Assembly: GCA_026710875.1 (NCBI GenBank)
Contig: JAPOQE010000039.1
Coordinates: 1 to 48,982 of the forward strand
Length of the DNA: 48,982 nt
Direction of reading: 5' to 3'
From: Gammaproteobacteria bacterium
GTDB lineage: Bacteria > Pseudomonadota > Gammaproteobacteria > UBA4575
The position numbers and the translations under genes are program-made. A model generated the notes under the pieces. The model did not search any database. It was not told the DNA's origin and saw only the letters and a program-made list of their open reading frames with translations. This document shows positions 20,756 to 33,397 of the stretch, piece by piece. Within the stretch, counting starts at the first letter, position 1. Each line of letters opens with the position of its first letter.

Positions 20756-20809
20756 TCCTTAAATTCAACAGGCATGACATCACACCGCTGGATGCGCATA
20801 GTCAGCATG

Positions 20810-21034
20810 TCACACACCACATCCTAGATTAGCAGCGGCCAGGGGAAGAAATTCCAACTGACGCTGTTTCATCCGTCCCATTCGGGAGCCTGCTAATCTC
20901 GTCTTTGCCAAGCTCGCCGCAGGCAGTTGTTTTATTTGAAATCCAAGTATCTCACTGCGAGTCATTCCAAATGCAGCTTGCAAGCCAAATAACTCATCAG
21001 CAGTGTCAACAATTGTCACTTTTATTCTGCGCAA
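20810..21034 (-). pseudogene. Possible remnant of a tyrosine-recombinase integrase
   Basis: A 74-codon frame directly after dndE (starting 13 bp inside it from a TTG). The segment ADELFGLQAAFGMTRSEILG resembles the LQxAFGLRxxE box that carries the first catalytic arginine in the phage-type integrases of the Integrase_1 group. The residues that follow do not look like a conserved fold, and the frame stops after about 50 more codons, so at most a decayed fragment remains. Position at the end of an AT-rich island fits an integration scar. The alternative is a chance open frame. Confidence 0.3.
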
Positions 21035-21399
21035 CCTCTTCCCAGAATAGTCAGTCTGATAAGATCATCCACGCTCCTTACATGACCTAGCTTATGCACA
21101 CCCATTTCAATTAAACCCACAGTTACTTCGCGGATATCTCCTTCAATTTGATTATCAAGCATAAATTTTTTTATCAGAAGTTCATATGTTGCAGCTAAAT
21201 CTCCAAACAAGACTTCTCTACTTAACTCTTGTCCATTATTGTCCTCTACGCCTGAATTACTAATCCCAGTTTCTTTGCTGAGACTGATAGAAATGGCAAT
21301 TCTAGAAAGTATATTGGGTGTAACGCCAGTATTAGCCTTAATAGCTCTAAACCGATCACTAGCCTTCTTGGATAGCTGTATCCTTGATGGTAGCGTCAT
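21022..21399 (-). CDS. dndE: DNA phosphorothioation protein DndE
   Basis: A 125-residue member of the DndE family, an essential part of the complex that puts sulfur into the DNA backbone; DndE is known to form a small helical protein that binds nicked DNA. The protein starts MTLPSRIQLSKKASDRFRAI, with the typical opening of basic residues and short helices, then GVTPNILSRIAISISL, and ends in a segment of hydrophobic helices with GLIEMGVHKLGH. Its ATG at 21399 overlaps the dndD stop as ATGA, with AGGTG 6 bases upstream; the longer frame from 21420 is unlikely. It is the last gene of dndBCDE. The family was assigned partly from context because DndE sequences are short. Confidence 0.85.
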   Translation of the reverse strand: MTLPSRIQLSKKASDRFRAIKANTGVTPNILSRIAISISLSKETGISNSGVEDNNGQELSREVLFGDLAATYELLIKKFMLDNQIEGDIREVTVGLIEMGVHKLGHVRSVDDLIRLTILGRGCAE

Positions 21400-23393
21400 G
21401 CTACACCTGATTGCTTCCAAAAATAACCTTGCTTGACAAAACTGGATTTCTTCTCAGGACTGTATACCACTTCAAATGCGTGGGAGATATTGGGTGATAG
21501 TTCAGAAAAAAAAGTTTTGTCAATTTCTGTATCAGTCGATAGCAAAATTACCTGATGGCTTGCTATGGGAAAATAATATTTTGCTAACTTTTTTCTATGT
21601 TTAGAATCAAGGCGGCCCAAAGGTGTGTCGATCATTACAGGTAAATTTCTTCCGCTTGCTTTTGCCAAAGAATTTAGCATAGCTATAGCATAAATCTGAC
21701 GCTCCCCAGCCGACATTTCATCTATAGAAACCTCATCTTCATTTCCTGCATCAATTAGCTTGATATCGAATGAATGAAGGTCAATCTGTGCCGTGAGATG
21801 TAAGTCTTCTTTTCGGGCAAGAACTCGATACGAGTTTTCAAATATCTCTTTAAGATAATCTACTTTGTATTTTTTCATTTTTTCTGAAAACTCTTTTAAT
21901 AATATTTGAGTAGTCGCTGCATATTCAATTTGTCGATCTAATTTACTACTAGAGTCTATTTGTTCCGTTATATTTTCTAGTTTTTTAACAATCATCAATG
22001 CTGACTTTAGAAAGGCTCTTCTTTTTTCAAAGTGTTTCTCAATTTTTCCATATTGTTCGGCTTTTTTTGTTTGTAATCTGGATAGTTTAGAAAGAGTTTC
22101 TCGTAGCAGTTCATCCTCCGGGGCGCGGGCAAAATTGTCTTCTAAATGCTGTTGCTTCTCACGAAGCTGTTGAAGTTTAGCCAACGTATCTGTAGCGGAA
22201 TGCTGTTCTGCAACACAAAATTCCAAGTCCTTTTGCACTTGGCTTCGCACTGCTGGGCCCACATTAAATACGCTTTCTAACGTATTTTGGGGGTTCTGGA
22301 GAGAATGTTGCTTTCTGCGTAGAATCTCCAAGACTGTTGCCGAGCCATGCAAATTTTCCAGCTTTACTTCTGATATCAAGTCTTCAGCCAGTTGCAATGC
22401 TCCTTTTCTCTGCAGATTCTTACTGTAAGACTGCTTTTCTTGTTCTAGACTTTTAAGCAATGATTTTAAAGGATCAATTGCCAAAGCCAGGGTGAGTCTG
22501 CTAGACAACAGTTCACGTGCATTTTGTTCTAAATGATCTATTTTGTATTTTGTATCAATTGAATCAATTGATGATTTTTGACGCGATCTTGCCCAAGCCC
22601 CTCCCATTTCCATGAGTGTAGCTTCAGTTCGTTGAATATTTACTTCTAGTTCTGCTAATTCACATCTACAGTTATCTATCTCAGTTTGCTCAGAATAAGC
22701 TAATTCCCGAAATTGGCTTAGCTCTTTTTCCATGACTTTTTGATGCCTAGCCAAGTCATCAGGTGCTGTAGTGAGCCGCCTTTTCCTCTTGTAAAGAGCT
22801 AAGTCCGCTGAAAGTATATTTATTATGTCTAGCCCAATTAGCTTCTGGATTGAATTTGATAGTTCAAGATTGCTATTCTCAGCCGCTAAGTCAGAAACCT
22901 TTTCACCATCAAAGAAAAACAACTCTGACACACCTAGAGGTACTAATTCGTTCAAGAAGGCTTGTGCTTGGTCTTGGCTTAACCCGCCAATTTCCTTACC
23001 GTCTTTGCTAATAAAAAGATCTTCAAGAACTCCTTCCCCTTTCCTTTCCCAACGTCTCGTTACTTGATATTCGCTAATCTCCCCTAGATGTGCGTATTCA
23101 AATGTGACTTCGACACTTGCACCACCAGCCGGTACGATGCTGTCTTGTGTTTTGTGAATGGATTTCAATAAGAAGTTTGAATATACCTTTTTAGAGGTGC
23201 CCCTCCCTAGAGATTGACGCCCATGAAATGCTAACCGGATTGCCAACAATATGCTGGTCTTCCCAGCACCATTAAGACCTCCGAACAGTATGATTGGTCT
23301 TGTATGCCCGTACTTAACTCCAGGTTTCAGTGTGATTTGATGAGTGCCTCGGAAAATACGAAAATCTGTCATCCGTAGAACAGACAATATCAT
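21396..23393 (-). CDS. dndD: DNA phosphorothioation ATPase DndD
   Basis: A 665-residue SMC/Rad50-like ATPase. In Dnd systems DndD is thought to supply energy for, or alter, DNA structure during sulfur insertion. Walker A is GLNGAGKT at residues 39-46, followed by AIRLAFHGRQ; the Q-loop region has FFFDGEKVSDLA. A long central part of about 350 residues is coiled coil, without an obvious zinc hook. The ABC signature SAGERQIYAIAML begins near residue 561, and Walker B with the D-loop is MIDTPLGRLDSKH near residue 588. The start overlaps the dndC stop by 4 bp (ATGA) and the end overlaps dndE, so the three are translationally coupled. The gene is AT-rich compared with the flanking core genes. Confidence 0.95.
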   Translation of the reverse strand: MILSVLRMTDFRIFRGTHQITLKPGVKYGHTRPIILFGGLNGAGKTSILLAIRLAFHGRQSLGRGTSKKVYSNFLLKSIHKTQDSIVPAGGASVEVTFEYAHLGEISEYQVTRRWERKGEGVLEDLFISKDGKEIGGLSQDQAQAFLNELVPLGVSELFFFDGEKVSDLAAENSNLELSNSIQKLIGLDIINILSADLALYKRKRRLTTAPDDLARHQKVMEKELSQFRELAYSEQTEIDNCRCELAELEVNIQRTEATLMEMGGAWARSRQKSSIDSIDTKYKIDHLEQNARELLSSRLTLALAIDPLKSLLKSLEQEKQSYSKNLQRKGALQLAEDLISEVKLENLHGSATVLEILRRKQHSLQNPQNTLESVFNVGPAVRSQVQKDLEFCVAEQHSATDTLAKLQQLREKQQHLEDNFARAPEDELLRETLSKLSRLQTKKAEQYGKIEKHFEKRRAFLKSALMIVKKLENITEQIDSSSKLDRQIEYAATTQILLKEFSEKMKKYKVDYLKEIFENSYRVLARKEDLHLTAQIDLHSFDIKLIDAGNEDEVSIDEMSAGERQIYAIAMLNSLAKASGRNLPVMIDTPLGRLDSKHRKKLAKYYFPIASHQVILLSTDTEIDKTFFSELSPNISHAFEVVYSPEKKSSFVKQGYFWKQSGVA

Positions 23394-24925
23394 TGGTTTC
23401 TACCAATAAATTCAGATTCTTGTTCTCCTAGCATTTTCATAATTTCATCTCGATCTTTTTCCCAGTCTGAGTACCTGGCTTTATCTCGATGATGCTGGTT
23501 TTCTATTTTCTCTAGGCTTTCCCAATCTTGGCTAAGCAATGTGTCCAACTGTTTTTGAATTCCCCGTCTGTTGCCTGATCCTATAGCCGCAACCTCCAAA
23601 TCAATTAGCTTCTGAACAAGCGGAGCCGGAATTGAGTACTCCTTGCTCAAAGACTCAACGAGTTCTATATCAAATTCAGAGAAAGTACCAAAATCATCTT
23701 TAACCCACTGAATTGGGTCATCTGGATATACCTCCTTATAAATTTTAGGAAGTGAATCTTTCCAATCTGGCTCGTTTGGGTCACTCAGCCACTGTTGACG
23801 TATTTCATGCAGTTCATCTCTTTGGATTAATTCAATATCCTGTCCGTTTTGCCTAAGTTTTTTTTCAATTTTGAGCAATCTCCTGAGCCAAGTCTTGCGC
23901 TGTTTCATCCAGTATGGACCAGGTATTACTTTCGAAATGGTGGATGAGTCATCATTAATTTTTTTACTCGCAGAAAATGTCACTTTCCCACTGCGGCGCT
24001 TGTAATTTCGATACTTGCGTTTATTTTCAGGTATGGTGGATTTAGCTAATTCATTCCTAAAATCTAGAAGTGGCTGCATCCAAGTCTCACCTGACTCAAT
24101 TAGCCCGTGCATGGCCTTATCCTCATTTACAACTGTGCATGTCCAGCAACCAAACCGAGAATTACCACAGGACGGTGTAGATGTATCTATGACCAGTGGG
24201 CATTCACCCTGGTTAGAACCTTTATAAAGTTCAAAAAGTTTTTTATTTGTGTCCCCCCACGGAGTAGGTGCACCAAGTAGGTACTCCCAAACTTCATCGG
24301 CAGACCAATCTTCTATTGGCATATAGGTATATGCATTCGGTAGTGATTTATGCCTTCCTAGTAAAGAATTTTTTATCCGATGCCGTGCAATGACCTGTGC
24401 GCGTGTTGCACTCTCCTGGCGGCGAGAACCAAGCACAATTATCGCCTCACCAAACTCAGCAACCTTGTCAAGAATAAACGTATTTACTGGATCAATTTTC
24501 ATCCTTTCCGTACACCATCTAAAACTTTTAGTTGGTGCTGGGTATCCCCTGCCAAGCAAATTGGCCCAGAAAGTTTGACTTTTTTTAGGATGAACTTGAT
24601 TAAGGCTGACTTTAAAAGAATTTTCTCCAGCTGCTGACGCAACAGATTTCAGAACATGTTTAATTTGATCAACGACAACAGGAGTTTCAACCAATGTGTC
24701 AGAAGATACGACATAGAGAGTTTTATTCCGTTTATCTTCGCTTAGGGTCACAATAGATTCATAAACGAGAGAAAGCACAGCAGTTGAGTCTTTACCTCCA
24801 CTGAACCCGATAACCCACGGCCTTTCATCCGCGGTGTACATGGTTTGAATCTCTTGGATAAGATTAGAGCAGGGCCGGCCTGCAAATTTTGTATTTCTTA
24901 CTAATTCACTGTGAGTCTTGTACAT
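23390..24925 (-). CDS. dndC: DNA phosphorothioation protein DndC (PP-loop ATPase, Fe-S)
   Basis: A 511-residue member of the PAPS-reductase/PP-loop family that activates the DNA backbone for sulfur transfer. The PP-loop SGGKDST is at residues 42-48. Four cysteines placed as in known DndC iron-sulfur proteins are visible: Cys138 in RWCTERMKIDP, then Cys253, Cys260 and Cys263 in CGNSRFGCWTC, likely ligands of a 4Fe-4S cluster. The C-terminal 200 residues are helical and charged. It follows dndB by 5 bp and overlaps dndD by 4 bp. DndC normally works with a cysteine desulfurase (DndA or a housekeeping IscS); no such gene is in this window. Confidence 0.95.
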   Translation of the reverse strand: MYKTHSELVRNTKFAGRPCSNLIQEIQTMYTADERPWVIGFSGGKDSTAVLSLVYESIVTLSEDKRNKTLYVVSSDTLVETPVVVDQIKHVLKSVASAAGENSFKVSLNQVHPKKSQTFWANLLGRGYPAPTKSFRWCTERMKIDPVNTFILDKVAEFGEAIIVLGSRRQESATRAQVIARHRIKNSLLGRHKSLPNAYTYMPIEDWSADEVWEYLLGAPTPWGDTNKKLFELYKGSNQGECPLVIDTSTPSCGNSRFGCWTCTVVNEDKAMHGLIESGETWMQPLLDFRNELAKSTIPENKRKYRNYKRRSGKVTFSASKKINDDSSTISKVIPGPYWMKQRKTWLRRLLKIEKKLRQNGQDIELIQRDELHEIRQQWLSDPNEPDWKDSLPKIYKEVYPDDPIQWVKDDFGTFSEFDIELVESLSKEYSIPAPLVQKLIDLEVAAIGSGNRRGIQKQLDTLLSQDWESLEKIENQHHRDKARYSDWEKDRDEIMKMLGEQESEFIGRNQ

Positions 24926-24930
24926 TGGGA

Positions 24931-26007
24931 CTAGGTAAACTCCTGCTCAATTTGCTTATCCTCATCACGTAAAGGCATATTCAGTTCTTTTTTAATGTAT
25001 ATGGCTGTGCGAGCAACATTGTATGTTGCCTTGCTTATCCTGCCGTTGTTCATAGCTCGGCCTTCCCAGGCAGGATTTATCCTAGACCAATCTATACTTT
25101 TCAGCTTCTTCAATTTTGCTTTCCAGGACCTCTCAGGAAGTAACAATAGTTCTGACCCTACAATTCCTATCGCCTGGAGTGTTACACCGTGGGCGTGTAC
25201 GAAGGATTCTCTAAGTCCGCTGGGAGCTATTTCTCGGCTGAGGACTTTTTGCCAATCAGGCATGTTCGCAGCCACATCATTCCAAAATTTAACTGCGAGA
25301 TCCTTATCCCCCTTGCTTATTGTATCCTTGCCGCTTTTTTTCAAAAGTGCTTTGGTTGCATTCTTGATAGCACTAAGTGTGAATAGCTTAAGACTACGAT
25401 TTGAAATACTGGATTTCTCCATTTCAGTAGTGCGGCTAAAAACATGAACATTCTTTTGTACATGTCGTCCTAGCTCAGAGATTTGGTCCCGCAAATCATA
25501 CAATGTACTTAGTGAGTCAGAAGGTCGTACCGCGTGCTTGTTTAAATCAGCAAACATTTGTTGAGCCCGTGCTAGGCCCTCATCAATGAAAAACATTACA
25601 GGGATGCTATCGTGGCCCAACTCAGGGTTTTCTTTGATTGCCGCCTCAATTGCTTTTCGGCGATGCTGGCCATCATTAATTATGATCTGCGCGTCCATTG
25701 GAACAGTGAGTGTTCCTATATTTGCACCTAAACCTATGTCTTCTGATGGTGCAAAAGACACTTTAGAATTTATAGATGCAGTAACGCAAGATAGTGTGTA
25801 ATCCTGTGGGTTATCAAGAAGATAGGAAGCAATTTCTGGAACCCGATTGAGATTTAGCGTACGTTGGGCACGCAGCTCTGGAGGTACTTCTTCTTCATCA
25901 AATTTAAATAGGGTAGGCACTACTCGCATCGGACACATCGCTATATAGCATGGACGACCCGACTGAATACCGCGCACGGCAGGAAATGAATGAAGATAAG
26001 TACTCAT
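24931..26007 (-). CDS. dndB: DndB, DGQHR-domain protein of the phosphorothioation operon
   Basis: A 358-residue DndB-family protein. The defining motif DGQHR is at residues 112-116 (IINDGQHRRKAIE), with the companion segment QMFADLNKHAVRPSDSLSTL further on. DGQHR proteins are related to ParB-like domains. In Salmonella and Streptomyces DndB is known as a repressor that binds the dnd promoter and tunes modification level. It is the first gene of dndBCDE. No ribosome site is visible before its ATG, and a possible promoter upstream would give an almost leaderless message. Tandem 20-base repeats lie 13-54 bases upstream of the start and could be its own operator. Confidence 0.93.
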   Translation of the reverse strand: MSTYLHSFPAVRGIQSGRPCYIAMCPMRVVPTLFKFDEEEVPPELRAQRTLNLNRVPEIASYLLDNPQDYTLSCVTASINSKVSFAPSEDIGLGANIGTLTVPMDAQIIINDGQHRRKAIEAAIKENPELGHDSIPVMFFIDEGLARAQQMFADLNKHAVRPSDSLSTLYDLRDQISELGRHVQKNVHVFSRTTEMEKSSISNRSLKLFTLSAIKNATKALLKKSGKDTISKGDKDLAVKFWNDVAANMPDWQKVLSREIAPSGLRESFVHAHGVTLQAIGIVGSELLLLPERSWKAKLKKLKSIDWSRINPAWEGRAMNNGRISKATYNVARTAIYIKKELNMPLRDEDKQIEQEFT

Positions 26008-26019
26008 GAGGCATTGCGA

Positions 26020-26061
26020 AAGTTAAATTAAAATTTATTGGAAGTCAAATTAAAGTTTATT
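26020..26061. repeat. Tandem imperfect 20-base repeats in the dndB promoter region (possible operator)
   Basis: Two copies, AAGTTAAATTAAAATTTATT at 26020-26039 and AAGTCAAATTAAAGTTTATT at 26042-26061, match at 18 of 20 positions and start 22 bases apart, about two turns of the helix. A shorter third copy of the core, TCAAATTAAAGT, is at 26188-26199. On the minus strand a possible promoter TTGACT (26043-26048), 17 bases, TAACTT (26020-26025) falls inside the repeats. The placement suggests a regulator-binding array, perhaps for DndB. AT-richness makes chance similarity possible. Confidence 0.5.
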
Positions 26062-26622
26062 TTAACATACATGCTATTGGATAATACGCTATAGTCTCAA
26101 AAATAAAGAATACGCTGCCAACCCAAAGAGTAAAGTATGTTTATTTTCGAGATTACTTTGCAATAACGACCTGAATTTGGCATGCCCTCAAATTAAAGTC
26201 AGCTTTTGATGGATAACATTTTGGACCTGTAAAGGCTCAAGCATTCCCAAGAGGCTGCAGCAAAAGAATTCTACGTATAACCAGTATGAGAATGACTGGA
26301 TCGACGAACCTCAAGAGTATTCTAATCCGACATTCTTGAATACTACTGGAGATTTCTAAGCATGCTTAGTAGAGGTTGGCAACAACATCAATCTGCAAAA
26401 TACCAGCAATGTTTGTTAACCGTAACACGTGATTCACACTGTACACTTCAATCTCCTACGCAACATCGTGTATTCCAGACATAGTAAATATCATTTCGTT
26501 CATTTTCTTATAACTTAGCAAACAGATATTAGTGACCGTGATGTGAGAGTAGTTCTGACAATTTCGGTTGCGAAATATGTCTCAAACTAGCAATGTTTCT
26601 TTGCTACATGTTGGAGGATTTA
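26062..26622. other. Divergent intergenic region between dndB and the HNH endonuclease gene
   Basis: About 560 AT-rich bases with no supported gene. It must contain the endonuclease promoter and perhaps upstream control sites for dndB. A third copy of the TCAAATTAAAGT core is at 26188-26199. I see no tRNA, no long inverted repeat and no convincing sigma70 promoter for the rightward gene. Confidence 0.5.
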
Positions 26623-27513
26623 ATGTCATATCTGCAATCATTATTAGAAATATTCGATAATCTTAAAATGGGAAAAAGGAAGGGCCAACATGCACCGCAT
26701 AAGCCTCTATTGATTTTGTACGCACTTAGTGAACTCCAAAGAGGTCAAAAAACATTTGCCTATAGAGATGTAGATCCTGCACTTACGAGTCTTCTCAAGA
26801 CCTTTGGACCGCAGCGAGTGTCGCATCACTCTGAATACCCATTTTGGAGACTGCAGAACGATGGAATTTGGATCGTAACTGCTGATGCACCTCTAGAATC
26901 GCGCAAAAGTAATTCAGACGCCAAGAAATCTGAATTGATACAGAAAAACGCTATAGGAGCATTTTCTCCTAGTGCAATGAAAACTCTTATGGCACATCCA
27001 CAAAACATAAGAACTGTAGCAAAATGGCTATTAGAAGCAAATTTCCCAGAATCATTGCATCATGACATTCTTGATGCAGTTGGGCTAAATTTGGAAGTAG
27101 CGGGAAATCAGCAAAGGCGCAGCCCAGATTTTCGTCGAAGAGTATTAAGGGCATACGAATCCCGATGTTGCGTGTGTGGTTATGACATGCGACTAGGAGA
27201 CAATTCTGCTGGACTCGAAGCAGCACATATTATGTGGCATCAAGTCGGCGGACCAGACAAAGAGTCTAATGGCCTTGCATTGTGTGTGCTACACCATAAG
27301 GCATTTGACCTCGGTGCGTTTGCTATTGATGATGATGGACAAACCGTTGTTTGTAGCCAAGAACTATCTGGTACTACTAGAACGGAATGGTTGCTTGCTT
27401 TTCACGGTACGCGTTTAAAGCGCCCACAGAGTGTATGTTATTTCCCAGAAAGAAAGTTCTTGGAGTGGCACCGCGTTACAATATTCAAGGGCCCTGGGAG
27501 AGACTTTAAATAG
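26623..27513 (+). CDS. Phosphorothioate-dependent restriction endonuclease (sulfur-binding domain + HNH)
   Basis: A 296-residue two-domain nuclease. Residues 1 to about 155 resemble the sulfur-binding domain (SBD) of type IV enzymes such as ScoMcrA and SprMcrA, which recognise phosphorothioated DNA: RKGQHAPHKPLLILYAL (residues 19-35), LLKTFGP, then SEYPFWRLQNDG (residues 70-81), whose Tyr-Pro matches, as I recall, part of the sulfur pocket. The HNH domain follows: Cys182-x2-Cys185, AAHI with His202, Asn216 and CVLHH at 221-225. The start is fixed by GGAGG 5 bases before the ATG at 26623; upstream in-frame ATGs (26593, 26608) lack a site. It is divergent from dndBCDE. A nuclease that cuts sulfur-marked DNA beside the genes that make the mark is unexpected. 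Confidence 0.85.
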   Translation: MSYLQSLLEIFDNLKMGKRKGQHAPHKPLLILYALSELQRGQKTFAYRDVDPALTSLLKTFGPQRVSHHSEYPFWRLQNDGIWIVTADAPLESRKSNSDAKKSELIQKNAIGAFSPSAMKTLMAHPQNIRTVAKWLLEANFPESLHHDILDAVGLNLEVAGNQQRRSPDFRRRVLRAYESRCCVCGYDMRLGDNSAGLEAAHIMWHQVGGPDKESNGLALCVLHHKAFDLGAFAIDDDGQTVVCSQELSGTTRTEWLLAFHGTRLKRPQSVCYFPERKFLEWHRVTIFKGPGRDFK

Positions 27514-27721
27514 TGATGCTATCTAGGAAGTATAAAAATGCAAGTAAGATGAAAAATTCAAACTCCTCTAAAACTTGATCCGCTTTGCACAAAACCAACT
27601 ACGATTAGTCCGCTTAACTCCCCATGCATGGACTAGGTATATTACATTTCTAACAAGAATTACCCGCAAATACCTTCCGCAATTGGATTGGGGTGGGCTC
27701 TGATTTAAAAACATTTAAAAG

Positions 27722-28003
27722 TCATAACAACTGTTCAAACTTTTTCAAACATTTAATTACCGTAAAGGCATCTCTTTTGCTATTTATAGAAAATGATTGC
27801 GCAACTTTCCAAGTATTGTTGCGCCTCTGCCAACGATAAAATTTTAGGAATAGCTTTTCTGTCTTGGGGTTTTCGATCAAAAGGATCGCAGTCCACCACG
27901 AACCAGTTCGACTTATTGTGAGTGCTTCTTTTATGTGGTTAGCATAGTAATCAGAGACTGGAAACCCATCGAACTCATCTATTCCACCCACATTCTCCGA
28001 CAT
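27722..28003 (-). CDS. Small protein of unknown function in the island
   Basis: A 93-residue protein with a reasonable ribosome site (AGGGA about 7 bases before the ATG). The N-terminus is acidic (MSENVGGIDEFDGFPVSDYY). The middle looks like a compact beta-sheet fold (WWTAILLIENPKTEKLFLKF), followed by a basic WQRRNNTWKVAQSF segment and a C-terminal helix with KCLKKFEQLL. The aromatic-basic strand pattern could bind nucleic acid, but I recognise no family. It is on the same strand as the SNF2-ParB-ParB-MBL operon, 143 bp after it, and may be its fifth gene; it is convergent with the endonuclease gene. Confidence 0.6.
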   Translation of the reverse strand: MSENVGGIDEFDGFPVSDYYANHIKEALTISRTGSWWTAILLIENPKTEKLFLKFYRWQRRNNTWKVAQSFSINSKRDAFTVIKCLKKFEQLL

Positions 28004-28146
28004 TGTTTGTCCCTGAAAGTTGCCTTACGTCCCAGCAATTATCCTGATGCAGTTTCATCCTCGACCTAGTAACTAGGTGGCAAACTATGTACTTGAGAGA
28101 ACTAGCAACTCATCCCAGGATTGAATGCTAAAGTATAAGGCTAACA

Positions 28147-29184
28147 CTACCCCCACTTATGGACACGGGCATTGCTGCTAGGTCTACATTTAATACCTAA
28201 TTCGTTTGAAAGCACATTAGCAAGAATTCGACCACGATCATTTCTGCCGCGGCAATTATCAGTAACTACATACTGAGCTCCAGATTTCTCCACATACTCC
28301 AGTGTTCCAGCAAAGTCTGCATGAGCTGATAATCCACATCTATATGCTTGATCTCCGTACTGCATAACAGGTTGTTCTGCACGATACTTACTAAGCTTAA
28401 CAGTTGAACCTTCGACAATTCCATCAACTCGACCACCTTCAGATAGTTGCCAACACCGGACATATCGACCATTTGCAAGTGCATTATGGCCATCTTTCGT
28501 ATCAACACAAATTGGCTCATCGATGGGCCACCCATATTTCTGGTGGACTTTAATACTGGCACAAAGCTTACGATTCGCTATTATCGGAACCGAGTCCTGA
28601 ATATCCGCAGTACTCAAAATCATCAATGCTCTTTCAATAACTGCAGTGTGAGCCATGAGATGAATTGGGCCGTTCCCTAGAAGTTTCTTGCTCAATTCGA
28701 CAAATTTTTCTTCTACTTCTGTTTGCGAATAATTGTATCCAGAGCCTGGTTTTCCATATGTTGCATCAACTACCAATGCATCAACTTTGATCACCTTGTC
28801 CAATGGCCATGAAAAGTCCCCGGAGTAGCCTAATCGTGTACCATCATCCAGCACGACAAGCACTTGTGATGCTCCTAACATATGCCCCGCAGCAACTATA
28901 GAAATAGTTGAGTTTCCATAATGAAATTGATCCCCAGCTGAAAGCTCACGAATATTCGTACGAAATTCAAAATCTGGATGATCAAACGTTAATAACTCTC
29001 GGACACATGGGCTCATTACAAGCACCCTGCCCTTACTAGTTTCGAAATCAGCCATATGATCACTGTGGATATGAGTTTGCACGCGCACATCTCTGTTGCA
29101 GTGGAAACCATCACAGGTCACGTCTGGCCCAAGTATTACCGTACCTGAGCGGATAACATCAATCTCAAAATCGTTTTCAACCAT
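28147..29184 (-). CDS. Metallo-beta-lactamase-fold nuclease-like protein
   Basis: A 345-residue MBL-fold hydrolase of the kind annotated as exonuclease-like or beta-CASP/SNM1-related. The metal-binding motif HIHSDH is at residues 38-43, with further likely ligands His101 (AGHMLGAS) and Asp123 (YSGDF), and His in LSAHADFAGT near the C-terminus. The segment PIHLMAHTAVIERALMIL resembles the beta-CASP-side region of RNA/DNA nucleases. No signal peptide, so it acts in the cytoplasm. Its start overlaps the upstream ParB-like gene by 8 bp, so it is translated as part of the same operon. Nuclease activity is an inference; the substrate cannot be read from the sequence. Confidence 0.8.
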   Translation of the reverse strand: MVENDFEIDVIRSGTVILGPDVTCDGFHCNRDVRVQTHIHSDHMADFETSKGRVLVMSPCVRELLTFDHPDFEFRTNIRELSAGDQFHYGNSTISIVAAGHMLGASQVLVVLDDGTRLGYSGDFSWPLDKVIKVDALVVDATYGKPGSGYNYSQTEVEEKFVELSKKLLGNGPIHLMAHTAVIERALMILSTADIQDSVPIIANRKLCASIKVHQKYGWPIDEPICVDTKDGHNALANGRYVRCWQLSEGGRVDGIVEGSTVKLSKYRAEQPVMQYGDQAYRCGLSAHADFAGTLEYVEKSGAQYVVTDNCRGRNDRGRILANVLSNELGIKCRPSSNARVHKWG

Positions 29185-29905
29185 TATCTGTTATCTTCAT
29201 TGTCAATAGTCTGCTAACCCTTTCCTCGAATTCAAGATCCGAAGCTACTACTGCGCCAACATGCTTACTTCCAATAACGGCAAAGTTCTTTTCGCCGAGC
29301 TTGGCAGAAAATTCTCCTAAATTTGGGTACAAATCTTTCACGATCTTCTTAATTAGCTGGTCCCGCTCTGACTGTCGCATTCTTTTTAAATTCTTGCTAA
29401 TTGAATTTCGATTAAGTTCTTCTTCAGTTAGTTTTCCAAGCACTACATGACGTACTTGCGTACGAACACGCCTTTGCACAACGTCTTTGATGCAATCTGA
29501 CAGTGATCGGTTGGATCGTTCACGCAACTGGCGCATGGATACAACTTCCTTTTTTGTAAGATGGTTTTCAATTATTGCGCTGATCATTTTTGGATGATTA
29601 CTCTGCGGCATCTTCGCAAGCTCAACTGCAACTGAAAAACCAATGCTACTGCTGGTAGACTCTCTCCATTCGACCAAATATTGAATTTCTTCTGACAGCT
29701 TAAGTAGCTGCAAAAACCGAGAAACCATTGTTGCATCATTGAATCCAAATGCCTTGGCAATTTCTGTTTTCGATGCTCCTGCTTTCTCAGCTTTGTGTAT
29801 ATTCCAAGCAACTTCAACTGGGGTTAAAGGCCGTTGTTTTCGATGTGAACCAACAGACAAAAACGTCTGATCTATTTCGCTCGAGTCAAGACCTAAAAGT
29901 CTCAT
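29177..29905 (-). CDS. ParB/KorB-type helix-turn-helix protein (lacks the N-terminal ParB domain)
   Basis: A 242-residue protein. Its first 110 residues look like the helical DNA-binding part of ParB: RPLTPVEVAWNIHKAEKAGA, SKTEIAKAFGFNDATMVSRF as the helix-turn-helix, and FLQLLKLSEEIQYLV after it. There is no N-terminal ParB/Srx box, which here is in the protein encoded just upstream. The C-terminal half is basic and charged and ends in a possible small beta domain (NFAVIGSKHVGAVVAS). It begins 2 bp after the upstream ParB-like gene and overlaps the MBL gene by 8 bp. Likely a DNA-binding partner of the operon. Confidence 0.7.
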   Translation of the reverse strand: MRLLGLDSSEIDQTFLSVGSHRKQRPLTPVEVAWNIHKAEKAGASKTEIAKAFGFNDATMVSRFLQLLKLSEEIQYLVEWRESTSSSIGFSVAVELAKMPQSNHPKMISAIIENHLTKKEVVSMRQLRERSNRSLSDCIKDVVQRRVRTQVRHVVLGKLTEEELNRNSISKNLKRMRQSERDQLIKKIVKDLYPNLGEFSAKLGEKNFAVIGSKHVGAVVASDLEFEERVSRLLTMKITDNG

Positions 29906-29907
29906 GT

Positions 29908-30729
29908 TTAATTGTTCTCAACCAATCCCATAGAGTCTAAGCTAGACTCGAGCATGTCTTGGGCCGCAACGCTGGGATCAGCATCTTGCCCTTCAGCATA
30001 CTTTCTTAAAGCATCCCCATATGAAGGGCCCATAGTAAATGAAATCTTAAGCCTAGTATCTGGCTTCTTTGCACTTTCAACTATCTTGCTGACCTCAGCT
30101 GTAGGGTTACTCTTGTTAACTTCCAAAATGCGTTTTCTTAACTCATCGTCTGATTCCTGCAACACATCAACAAGTTCCTCAGCCCTTTCAGGGCTATAGA
30201 CTCCATCCACAGTTGCAGCATCTTGTGATTTAATTGCGAGGTCTACAGGCAACGCATTGTTGTCAACAAGTGACTTTAAATTTGGCTCGAGCCTGCTATA
30301 ACGAACATACTTTCTAACCATATCGTACGGCAGTCGAGTCTTTTCCCACACCGCTTTCAAAGTGCCGTAACGCAAAAAGAGCTTTTCACAAAGATCAATC
30401 AAGTCCGTTCTCGTCATGTCTAACTGATGGACATTCTCATTGCCAGATATTGCCAATCCTTCATCTTCAGATAGTACTCGGTCAATAACACCAGCTTTAA
30501 TCTTTTGTTTACCAAGCTTCTTGTGTGCAAGGAGTCGTCGCTGCCCACAAACAACTTCCCATTTCGCTGAGTCATATTCAGAAATGGAAACTACGATAGG
30601 ATGCAATAATCCGAATTCCTGAATACTTGCAGCCAGTGTTTCTATTTCCTCTCCTGTATTTGATTTTCGAACTTGGAATCTATCAATTACCAATTTTTCA
30701 ATAGGTATATCCTCATATCTTTCAATCAT
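29908..30729 (-). CDS. ParB-like nuclease/partition-domain protein
   Basis: A 273-residue protein with a ParB/Srx fold at the N-terminus. DRFQVRKSNTGEEIETLAAS and GLLHPIVVS form box I, and VVCGQRRLLAHKKLG (CGQRR at residues 61-65) corresponds to the GERRxRA nucleotide-binding box, here with Gln for Glu. A helical region follows (LIDLCEKLFLRYGTLKAVWE and MVRKYVRYSRLEPN) that resembles the ParB helix-turn-helix. ParB/Srx domains bind CTP or cleave nucleic acid in different families; which applies here is unknown. An excellent ribosome site (AGGAGG) precedes its ATG. No parA is near, so chromosome partition is unlikely. Confidence 0.8.
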   Translation of the reverse strand: MIERYEDIPIEKLVIDRFQVRKSNTGEEIETLAASIQEFGLLHPIVVSISEYDSAKWEVVCGQRRLLAHKKLGKQKIKAGVIDRVLSEDEGLAISGNENVHQLDMTRTDLIDLCEKLFLRYGTLKAVWEKTRLPYDMVRKYVRYSRLEPNLKSLVDNNALPVDLAIKSQDAATVDGVYSPERAEELVDVLQESDDELRKRILEVNKSNPTAEVSKIVESAKKPDTRLKISFTMGPSYGDALRKYAEGQDADPSVAAQDMLESSLDSMGLVENN

Positions 30730-30776
30730 TACCTGCCTCCTATAATTCCGAATATGAAAATGAAATTGTGGAAAAG

Positions 30777-32105
30777 TTAACTAAGAATTTGCTGCAAAGT
30801 TTTAAGTGACTCTTTTGTGCTAACTTTAGTCGCAGCAGAGTCAATATATTCCTTAAATAATTGACGCTTTGACTTCAATACTTCGTCGATCCTCTCCTCA
30901 ATTGAATTACGTACTAAATATTTAATAACATGCAGTGGATGTATTCGCCCAAATCTGTGAGCTCGATGTACGGCCTGATTTTCAACCGACGGATTCCACC
31001 AACGGTCAAACATCACTACTGTATCTGCTTCTTTCAAGTTGAGGCCAACACCACCTGCTTTTAATGAAATGAGAAGTATATGTGAATCCACAGATTCTCG
31101 AAATCGCTTGATAGATTCGTGCCTAACCTTTGCATCCATTGCTCCAGTGTAGAGATCGTGGGAATAATCTCCCAACTGCTGACTTAACCATTTCAAAGTT
31201 TCAACAAACTGTGAAAAAACAATAAGCTTGCTGTTTGAAGCAAATGTATTTTCAATTACAGTTTTCAATGCATCCAACTTAACTGACTCTCCACTTTTGA
31301 AATCAAAATTACATACCTTTTTGAGTTTTACAATTAGCTCTAAAAGATGCGCACTTTCGTGCTTTTCGCGCTGCCATGTTGGGGTACCTCTGGCTTCCCA
31401 GATTTCATGATAGGAGACCCATTGTTTACCAGTGAGGGTGAGATGTACTTCTTGCTCTATAATTGGCGGGAGTTCAGGTATTACATCTTTTTTGATTCTG
31501 CGGAGAAAGTACGGTGCCATTAAATTCTGCATCTCGTCAGATGACATTTCAGGCAGCAATATCCCTGGCTTTACAAAGGAAAATATTGAAACTATATCTT
31601 CTGTAACGTTTTCAAGAGGTGTGCCAGATAGTGCCCAAGACCTTCTTCTTGGCAAAGTAGAACATGCGATACTTGTCGATGAGGAAGGAGATTTGATTCG
31701 TTGCGCTTCGTCCAGAACTACGACCTCAAACTTTTCAGCATAGTCAAGAAGGTGACTGTCAATTCGGACCTGATCATATGTAGCAATTAGTACAGGAAAC
31801 GGTAACAAATAGCTTGCCTCACGATTTTTTTGATTGCCTTGGACCATTCTTACTGAAAGCTGCGGGGCCCATACTGCAAATTCTTCTTGCCAATTCCTAG
31901 ATAATGCCTCAGGAACTACTACTAGTACCCTAGCCCCAGAGTTATTGGCAACAACTGTACGAATTGCAACAATTGTCTGGACCGTCTTTCCGAGACCCAT
32001 TTCATCAGCTAATAGTGCACTATTAGATCTAACAAGAAAATTGATGCCCTCCTCCTGATAGGCTCTTATCTCGTGAGGCATAATATATTGGGATGACCTA
32101 TTCAT
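30777..32105 (-). CDS. SNF2-family DEAD/DEAH-like helicase, minimal length
   Basis: A 442-residue SNF2-type ATPase that would translocate on or remodel DNA. It consists of little more than the two RecA-like lobes: Walker A region DEMGLGKT (residues 34-41), Walker B with DEAQ at residues 132-135, motif III as ALSGTPLEN, motif V as LKAGGVGLNLKEAD and motif VI as AHRFGRIHPLHV with the arginine finger. Typical bacterial SNF2 proteins are 900-1100 residues with extra domains, so this is a stripped-down form. It is the first gene of a leftward operon with two ParB-like genes and an MBL gene. It may start at 32105 or at the ATG 32081; no ribosome site is obvious. Confidence 0.9.
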   Translation of the reverse strand: MNRSSQYIMPHEIRAYQEEGINFLVRSNSALLADEMGLGKTVQTIVAIRTVVANNSGARVLVVVPEALSRNWQEEFAVWAPQLSVRMVQGNQKNREASYLLPFPVLIATYDQVRIDSHLLDYAEKFEVVVLDEAQRIKSPSSSTSIACSTLPRRRSWALSGTPLENVTEDIVSIFSFVKPGILLPEMSSDEMQNLMAPYFLRRIKKDVIPELPPIIEQEVHLTLTGKQWVSYHEIWEARGTPTWQREKHESAHLLELIVKLKKVCNFDFKSGESVKLDALKTVIENTFASNSKLIVFSQFVETLKWLSQQLGDYSHDLYTGAMDAKVRHESIKRFRESVDSHILLISLKAGGVGLNLKEADTVVMFDRWWNPSVENQAVHRAHRFGRIHPLHVIKYLVRNSIEERIDEVLKSKRQLFKEYIDSAATKVSTKESLKTLQQILS

Positions 32106-32617
32106 AGAAATATATAGCCAAGCAAAAAATTTTAGTAATTAAGGGACAATCCGAATAAATTACATAACCGATTTAAGATGCGCTTTAGCACGCATGCAGG
32201 GGGTGGTGTGTTTTAGCTTAGGATAGACCGAGCCTGGAGGGCGACTGGTTAAACTTTTCTTTACTACACGAGACATAACCGAAACCAATGATAATCGTAA
32301 ATGTTGAGCACAATTTAAAAGTCAAGATTTTGATCTAATGTCACAAATCCCCGCTATCCTTCTCTGTTCACTCAGACTCTGTTCAGGCAAAATTATTTTC
32401 TACATTAGGACACTATAGCTTGGTAATGACCACTACATCTGTACGGTTCCACATTAATTACCATATAACAAGTTCCTTGTTTCCCTCACAGACCAAGAGA
32501 CTTGGTCAATTTAAAATCTAGGCTAAAACAAAATTGAAGCTTCATGGTAGTTCACCATAACCTGATTACAACACCTCAAAGACCTCTTTTTATGAGAGGA
32601 TTGCGAACAAAAATCGA
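32106..32617. other. Intergenic region at the right edge of the island
   Basis: About 510 bases, AT-rich, with no supported gene, between the divergent SNF2 gene and the secreted nuclease gene. A small hairpin CCTCT-7-AGAGG lies at about 32582-32598, just before the secreted nuclease. I looked for tRNA fragments, direct repeats shared with the left edge of the island and insertion-sequence ends, and saw none. Confidence 0.5.
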
Positions 32618-33397
32618 ATGAGCAGAATAGTCTTTCTTGGGGTTGTGCTGATTACTGTATGCACTATCACGTTTGGTGTCTCAGGAAACACCAAAAATCA
32701 ATTTATCAAAAAGTCAAAATCCGGCATCTGCCACTGCCCGGGCGGGCAATACTATGCTCGCACCTCAAAATTCACGGCTTTCGATTCCATTGAGGCCTGT
32801 CTTGCCAGCGGGGGCCGACACCCCAAGCGTGGACAGGGACAATGTTCAGCATCAGGCAAGCAAGGTCCAGCGGCCGCCAAAACACTGCCCCTGCCCCCTG
32901 CCACAAAGCCTAGGTCAAAACCCTATGATAGAAGCGTGTTCGGCGGATGGGCAGATACGGATGGCGACTGCCAGAATACGCGCCATAAGCGCCTGATCGA
33001 CTTGTCCGGGACGCCTGTCCACCTTTCCGACAACGGCTGCCTGGTCATTCAAGGGCATTGGTACGATCCGTATACCGGAAAAGTCCATCGTACTGCCCGG
33101 GACATGCACATCGATCACCTGGTCCCACTTTTCTATGCCTGGAAAAGGGGTGCTGCACACTGGGAGCCTGCGAAACAGCGAAGCTTCATGAATGATCCGG
33201 CAAACCTTCTCGCTATCGAGGCTGGTGTAAACCAGGACAAGGGTGCAAACGGTCCGCTTGCATGGCTTCCACCACGCATCGAGTTTCATTGCGAGTACCT
33301 GTTGAGATTTTCACGCGTGACAACCCGTTACGGGTTGCAGCACACACCCACCGAGCGCGTAGCCCTGGAACAGTTGACTGCGCAGAAATGTGACTAA
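32618..33397 (+). CDS. Secreted HNH/DUF1524-type endonuclease family protein
   Basis: A 259-residue exported protein. An N-terminal signal peptide (MSRIVFLGVVLITVCTITFG) is followed by a small Cys-containing module (GICHCPGGQYYARTSKF and FDSIEACLASGGRHPKRGQG) found in front of secreted nucleases. The catalytic region holds MHIDHLVPLFYAWKRGAAHW and NLLAIEAGVNQDKGANGPLA followed by WLPP, the pattern of HNH nucleases of the DUF1524/GmrSD-C type. It probably degrades extracellular or periplasmic DNA. Base composition is like the core genes, so it seems to lie just outside the island. No clear ribosome site precedes the ATG. Confidence 0.8.
   Translation: MSRIVFLGVVLITVCTITFGVSGNTKNQFIKKSKSGICHCPGGQYYARTSKFTAFDSIEACLASGGRHPKRGQGQCSASGKQGPAAAKTLPLPPATKPRSKPYDRSVFGGWADTDGDCQNTRHKRLIDLSGTPVHLSDNGCLVIQGHWYDPYTGKVHRTARDMHIDHLVPLFYAWKRGAAHWEPAKQRSFMNDPANLLAIEAGVNQDKGANGPLAWLPPRIEFHCEYLLRFSRVTTRYGLQHTPTERVALEQLTAQKCD

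Follow-up and report, generated by a model that had tools for sequence, protein, structure and literature searches.

What does a four-gene set composed of an SNF2-family ATPase, two ParB-like proteins and an MBL-fold protein do beside the phosphorothioate (PT) genes dndBCDE? The set lies in a 48,982-nt contig stretch of a gammaproteobacterium of the UBA4575 lineage (hereafter the window), and an original prediction, made from the sequence alone, had proposed that it forms a new effector or regulatory module that reads or enforces PT. We find a real and intact quartet that is unrecorded in the sources searched and that lies in a PT hotspot; its direct coupling to PT is no more than possible. 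At a rough probability of 0.5, we read it as a single operon encoding an ATP-driven machine for DNA processing that most likely restricts invading DNA. The features considered are collected in Table 1.

Table 1. Coordinates in the window of the island, the quartet and the neighbouring PT genes.
Feature	Coordinates	Strand	Basis
Low-GC island with dndBCDE, SBD-HNH and the quartet	20768-32617		Sister-genome flanks, GC, codon usage
dndE	21022-21420	-	PF08870 1.3e-18; TIGR03184 56.4 bits, under cut-off 71.85
dndD	21396-23393	-	TIGR03185 471 bits, cut-off 246
dndC	23390-24925	-	TIGR03183 560 bits, cut-off 290
dndB	24931-26007	-	TIGR03233 482 bits, cut-off 328
SBD-HNH, predicted PT-binding restriction endonuclease	26593-27513	+	NF045808 335.5 bits, cut-off 180
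93-aa ORF between SBD-HNH and MBL genes, downstream of MBL	27722-28003	-	
MBL-fold protein, beta-CASP nuclease superfamily, 345 aa	28147-29184	-	TIGR04122, CPSF/SNM1/Artemis matches
Second ParB-like protein, 242 aa, ParB HTH domain alone	29177-29905	-	HTH_ParB 1.8e-5
ParB/Spo0J/Noc-type protein, 273 aa, ParB_N and HTH-like region	29908-30729	-	ParB_N 1.1e-13
SNF2-family ATPase, 442 aa, helicase core only	30777-32105	-	Pfam SNF2-rel_dom 1e-52, Helicase_C 7e-22

All four quartet genes, spanning 28147-32105 on the minus strand, are intact. The SNF2 protein is the complete 442-residue enzyme originally described, with the core motifs DEMGLGKT, DEAQ, SGTPLEN and AHRFGR; its closest PDB structure is the Sulfolobus SNF2/Rad54 core 1z63, spanning residues 9-437, and among 378 proteobacterial genomes its closest relatives show 35-39% identity and sit inside frames of 844-1606 aa. 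The ParB/Srx, HTH and MBL genes do follow on the same strand with the 2-bp gap (ParB-HTH) and 8-bp overlap (HTH-MBL) given before, to which a 47-bp SNF2-ParB gap must be added. This spacing, with an AGGAGG ahead of the ParB ATG, supports the quartet as one transcription unit. The 93-aa ORF, with zero family matches among Pfam, PADLOC, NCBIfam and PHROG profiles, is a possible fifth member.

The two ParB-like proteins are not equivalent: the ParB/Srx N-domain is confined to the first, which matches Noc/ParB structures at 5e-9, and the second comprises the HTH part alone, with a PHROG ParB-like match at 4.8e-7. The sequences of the ParB boxes are GQRR and ENVHQ, the second of which departs from the canonical ENxxR; this makes CTP hydrolysis by the ParB uncertain. 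Relatives of the ParB are plasmid ParBs. No ParA match was found in the island, which sets these genes apart from plasmid ParABS partition systems, and neither replication nor integrase genes were recognised there.

Alignment of the MBL protein identified the motifs THIHSDH, AGHMLGAS, SGDF, DATYG and SAHAD, which supply the HxHxDH signature, motif A acidic residue and motif B histidine of beta-CASP nucleases. The alignment shows no histidine at motif C, where RNA-acting beta-CASP members usually have one, and this leans towards a DNA substrate without proving it. A profile built from the protein and a single archaeal homologue hits CPSF, Artemis, SNM1A and Apollo, and CPSF-73 and SNM1A are among the Foldseek matches of its AlphaFold model. 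That model is weak (pLDDT 49, pTM 0.53), as was the ParB model (pLDDT 38), which was discarded. Of the curated models, the closest is TIGR04122, a ligase-associated DNA exonuclease (2.6e-11); the metal-binding motifs and size resemble those of this family and of SNM1/beta-CASP nucleases, but the score of 43 bits stands against a cut-off of 325 and no ligase or Lhr helicase gene adjoins. The protein is classed as a beta-CASP-type nuclease and is a probable DNA-cutting enzyme.

This kinship with a DNA-damage exonuclease and with the SNM1/Artemis repair nucleases, like that of the ParB with plasmid ParBs, would suit a different reading, in which the quartet is a module for DNA repair or mobile-element maintenance that plays no part in defence and travels with the island. 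SNF2, ParB and MBL proteins are also known from repair and plasmid maintenance. We nevertheless consider this reading unlikely: no ParA or replication gene and no ligase or Lhr-type partner is recognised alongside the quartet, and the same locus in a congener holds defence genes.

That locus is an island of about 41% GC (36-44%) in surroundings of about 55%. GC3 is 0.33-0.37 for the quartet genes and 0.31-0.38 for dnd, against 0.60-0.72 for the measured core genes, and codon-usage distances are 0.225 between quartet and dnd, 0.651 between quartet and core, and likewise about 0.65 between dnd and core. So close a codon usage points to a common donor of dnd and quartet or to long co-residence. 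In the congeners G001 and G003, the two flanks of the island (the window as far as 20767, and the gene starting at 32618) lie close together, separated by 1.5 kb in G003, so the approximately 11.9 kb carrying dndBCDE, SBD-HNH and the quartet represents one inserted or replaced block; no repeat of at least 18 bp was found at its ends. The gene at 32618-33397 (plus strand) encodes an HNH-type GmrSD_C protein with a signal-peptide-like start and no DUF262 match, and is counted outside the island because it is conserved at the site in both congeners.

A third congener, G002, encodes SspB, SspC, SspD and SspE at this locus, which lies there between the GSDH gene and DUF1302 (L046 545-9742, L047 10760-19456), together with a methyltransferase related to dnd, a tandem pair of HNH proteins and GHKL ATPases that include an MzaB-like one. 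With Dnd in one species and Ssp in another of a single genus, the locus is a hotspot for PT defence, useful for tracing the exchange of PT systems. Because it is such a hotspot, adjacency is weak evidence of functional coupling, and the quartet may be an independent system that shares the site with a separate PT unit of dnd and SBD-HNH. Such a pair of unrelated cargoes, which we put only a little short of even odds, accords with hotspot contents that differ between species and with the SBD-HNH gene, which lies closer to dnd than the quartet does and, being divergent, interrupts the transcription unit; the close match in codon usage argues against it. This reading overlaps with that of a DNA-processing defence machine, and the two are not mutually exclusive.

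The proximity to dndBCDE on which the original prediction built was confirmed by curated NCBIfam/PADLOC models, which locate all four genes, intact, at 21022-26007 within the common low-GC island; DndB, DndC and DndD exceed their NCBIfam cut-offs, and DndE fails its own and passes Pfam. For the DndA or IscS that Dnd requires, an IscS gene lies at another site of the genome (750 bits, cut-off 643). Among the island genes, no match to DndF, DndG or DndH was obtained with Pfam, PADLOC or NCBIfam, nor any DndI/SspE-type protein with DUF262 and a C-terminal HNH in one chain. The prediction had also rightly set the quartet apart from DndFGH, SspE, SspFGH and PbeABCD, and indeed no known defence system in PADLOC/NCBIfam fits it. 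That list of PT partners overlooked two entries, however: DndI, another known dnd partner (PMC11662687), and the SBD-HNH endonuclease encoded in the island itself.

The SBD-HNH gene lies between dndB and the quartet on the opposite strand, with a likely start at the ATG at 26623, preceded by GGAGG. Its residues H36, K37, Y82 and P83 align with ScoMcrA H116, R117, Y164 and P165, whose roles in the sulfur pocket have been described (PMC6224610); the equivalent of ScoMcrA A168 is R, and most of the sulfur pocket is conserved. As judged from these matches, it is the nearest known-type PT reader to the quartet and a predicted PT-dependent endonuclease, a counterpart of EcoWI, SprMcrA and ScoMcrA that is encoded as a separate gene outside the quartet. 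SBD-HNH enzymes restrict PT-DNA, and fewer than 3.6% of them adjoin dnd genes (PMC7461809); in a wider survey, many dnd loci carry wHTH(SBD)+SAD+HNH proteins (PMC10853773). With dndBCDE apparently intact and IscS encoded at another site of the genome, the neighbouring predicted PT reader may present a self-restriction paradox, in that it should endanger its own host. On a Chlorohelix plasmid (L027 12001-19128), a second DndB gene comes after dndBCDE, together with a convergent gene for an HNH protein that bears a distant likeness (23% identity) to the SBD-HNH protein of the window.

Recurrence of the quartet beside other PT genes, as the original prediction would have it, was not observed. DndC is present in 8 of 369 gammaproteobacterial genomes, a count that includes the window's own, and the quartet lies near dnd in none of the other seven, two of whose loci are limited by contig ends. 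Only one of the seven has an SNF2 match with an E-value of 1e-30 or lower, and that match shows 35% identity and lies within a 1407-aa frame. The quartet is likewise absent from three annotated dnd plasmids and from the Ssp locus of G002; in this small sample, the association with PT therefore rests on a single locus. The surroundings of dnd in the seven contain other genes: in G304 (L029 7312-17884), for example, dndBCD and a divergent class-V aminotransferase, possibly DndA, are followed by GmrSD and PLD-helicase genes. In G362 (L031 3585-6252), a close dnd relative, with a 65% identical DndB, adjoins TraI_2 and RPA replication-initiator genes, suggesting carriage by a plasmid or conjugative element.

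Searches beyond PT loci gave a similar picture, with no orthologous quartet operon in plasmids, phages, viral contigs or about 1,150 proteobacterial genomes, which implies that the quartet is rare or fast-evolving. Plasmids were searched by tblastn with MBL, ParB, HTH and SNF2, and phages with SNF2 and MBL; viral contigs were scanned as well. The MBL query was run against 94 relatives and 369 gammaproteobacterial, 398 proteobacterial, 19 order-level and 337 further genomes, in partly overlapping samples, and the SNF2 query against 378 proteobacterial genomes. A motif scan of 84,980 species, not exhaustive in that it used two patterns (HIHSDHM and AGHMLGAS), also returned no quartet orthologue; the extra rows of its alignment were artificial variants of the window's MBL protein that steered the patterns onto the MBL motifs. 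Three sets of candidates were rejected: seven motif-scan hits, which are distant MBLs without adjoining SNF2, ParB or HTH matches; a Vibrio parahaemolyticus HTH match, near which SNF2, ParB and MBL are not annotated; and SNF2 matches on four plasmids, where the neighbours are unrelated and the SNF2 core sits inside a larger protein. No description of an SNF2-ParB-ParB-MBL gene set was found in the literature searched.

These comparisons bear on the proposal that the quartet is a PT-coupled restriction module, in which SNF2 translocation would scan DNA and DNA without PT would be cut, much as by DndFGH. Like the quartet, DndFGH pairs a DNA translocase with a nuclease, and it occurs with dndBCDE (PMC11662687, PMC10853773). 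The coupling of translocation to nicking reported for DndFGH (PMC11662687), the island and composition common to quartet and dndBCDE, and an island in which neither DndFGH nor DndI is recognised would all be in keeping with such a module. DndH, however, combines a HerA/FtsK motor, a degenerate SNF2 half and an REase, and DndFGH has no ParB or MBL subunit. No sulfur-binding domain was recognised in any of the four quartet proteins, the SBD-HNH protein already provides a PT reader, and the dnd-positive genomes, dnd plasmids and Ssp locus without the quartet weigh further against PT coupling, which appears quite improbable. The most specific version, a new PT-dependent module replacing DndFGH in which ParB clamps would load an SNF2 motor driving the beta-CASP nuclease, stopped or released at PT sites, is very doubtful. 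Of the original proposal, the mismatch with the listed PT partners stands, and the quartet's link to PT reduces to adjacency at one hotspot locus; direct coupling is possible.

Other systems have features in common with the quartet. IscS-DndBCDE-DndI and SspABCD-SspE also join a ParB-like superfamily NTPase (DUF262) to a nuclease, in PT-sensing defence, but there a single DUF262-HNH protein does both jobs, whereas in the quartet a ParB of canonical type, an SNF2 motor and an MBL nuclease are encoded separately. The SNF2 core resembles Zorya ZorD, Dpd DpdE and DISARM DrmD (best PADLOC E-values 3e-72, 4e-68 and 9e-43), but these matches are limited to the helicase core, none is full-length, and the partners ZorAB, DpdA and DrmABC are unmatched among the island genes. 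No quartet member is assigned to a known defence system.

Collectively, the quartet is best read as an orphan, probably anti-invader, DNA translocase-nuclease module in a PT-defence island. Its proteins would act together on DNA: the ParB and the HTH-only ParB-like protein may bind to DNA, where they would recruit or load the SNF2 motor, a stand-alone protein that would use ATP to translocate on double-stranded DNA or to remodel bound proteins, and the beta-CASP metallo-nuclease would degrade or process the DNA so exposed. Restriction of invading DNA is judged the most likely purpose because of the PT-defence setting, the quartet being carried with dndBCDE and SBD-HNH on a defence island. This defence-machine reading draws on the operon spacing, the intact SNF2 and beta-CASP motifs, the codon usage common with dnd, the single inserted block relative to G001 and G003, the Ssp set in G002 and the lack of a recognised ParA, replication or integrase gene; the failure to find an orthologous operon elsewhere, the weak AlphaFold models, the departing motif C of the MBL protein and the repair and plasmid-maintenance roles of its protein families count against it.

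Many dnd loci have no DndFGH, and how PT is enforced there is an open question (PMC10853773). The locus described here places two candidates for PT enforcement side by side, a predicted PT reader and an unrecorded translocase-nuclease operon. If the proposed function is correct, anti-invader defence would gain a new combination of ParB-type proteins, an SNF2 motor and an MBL nuclease.
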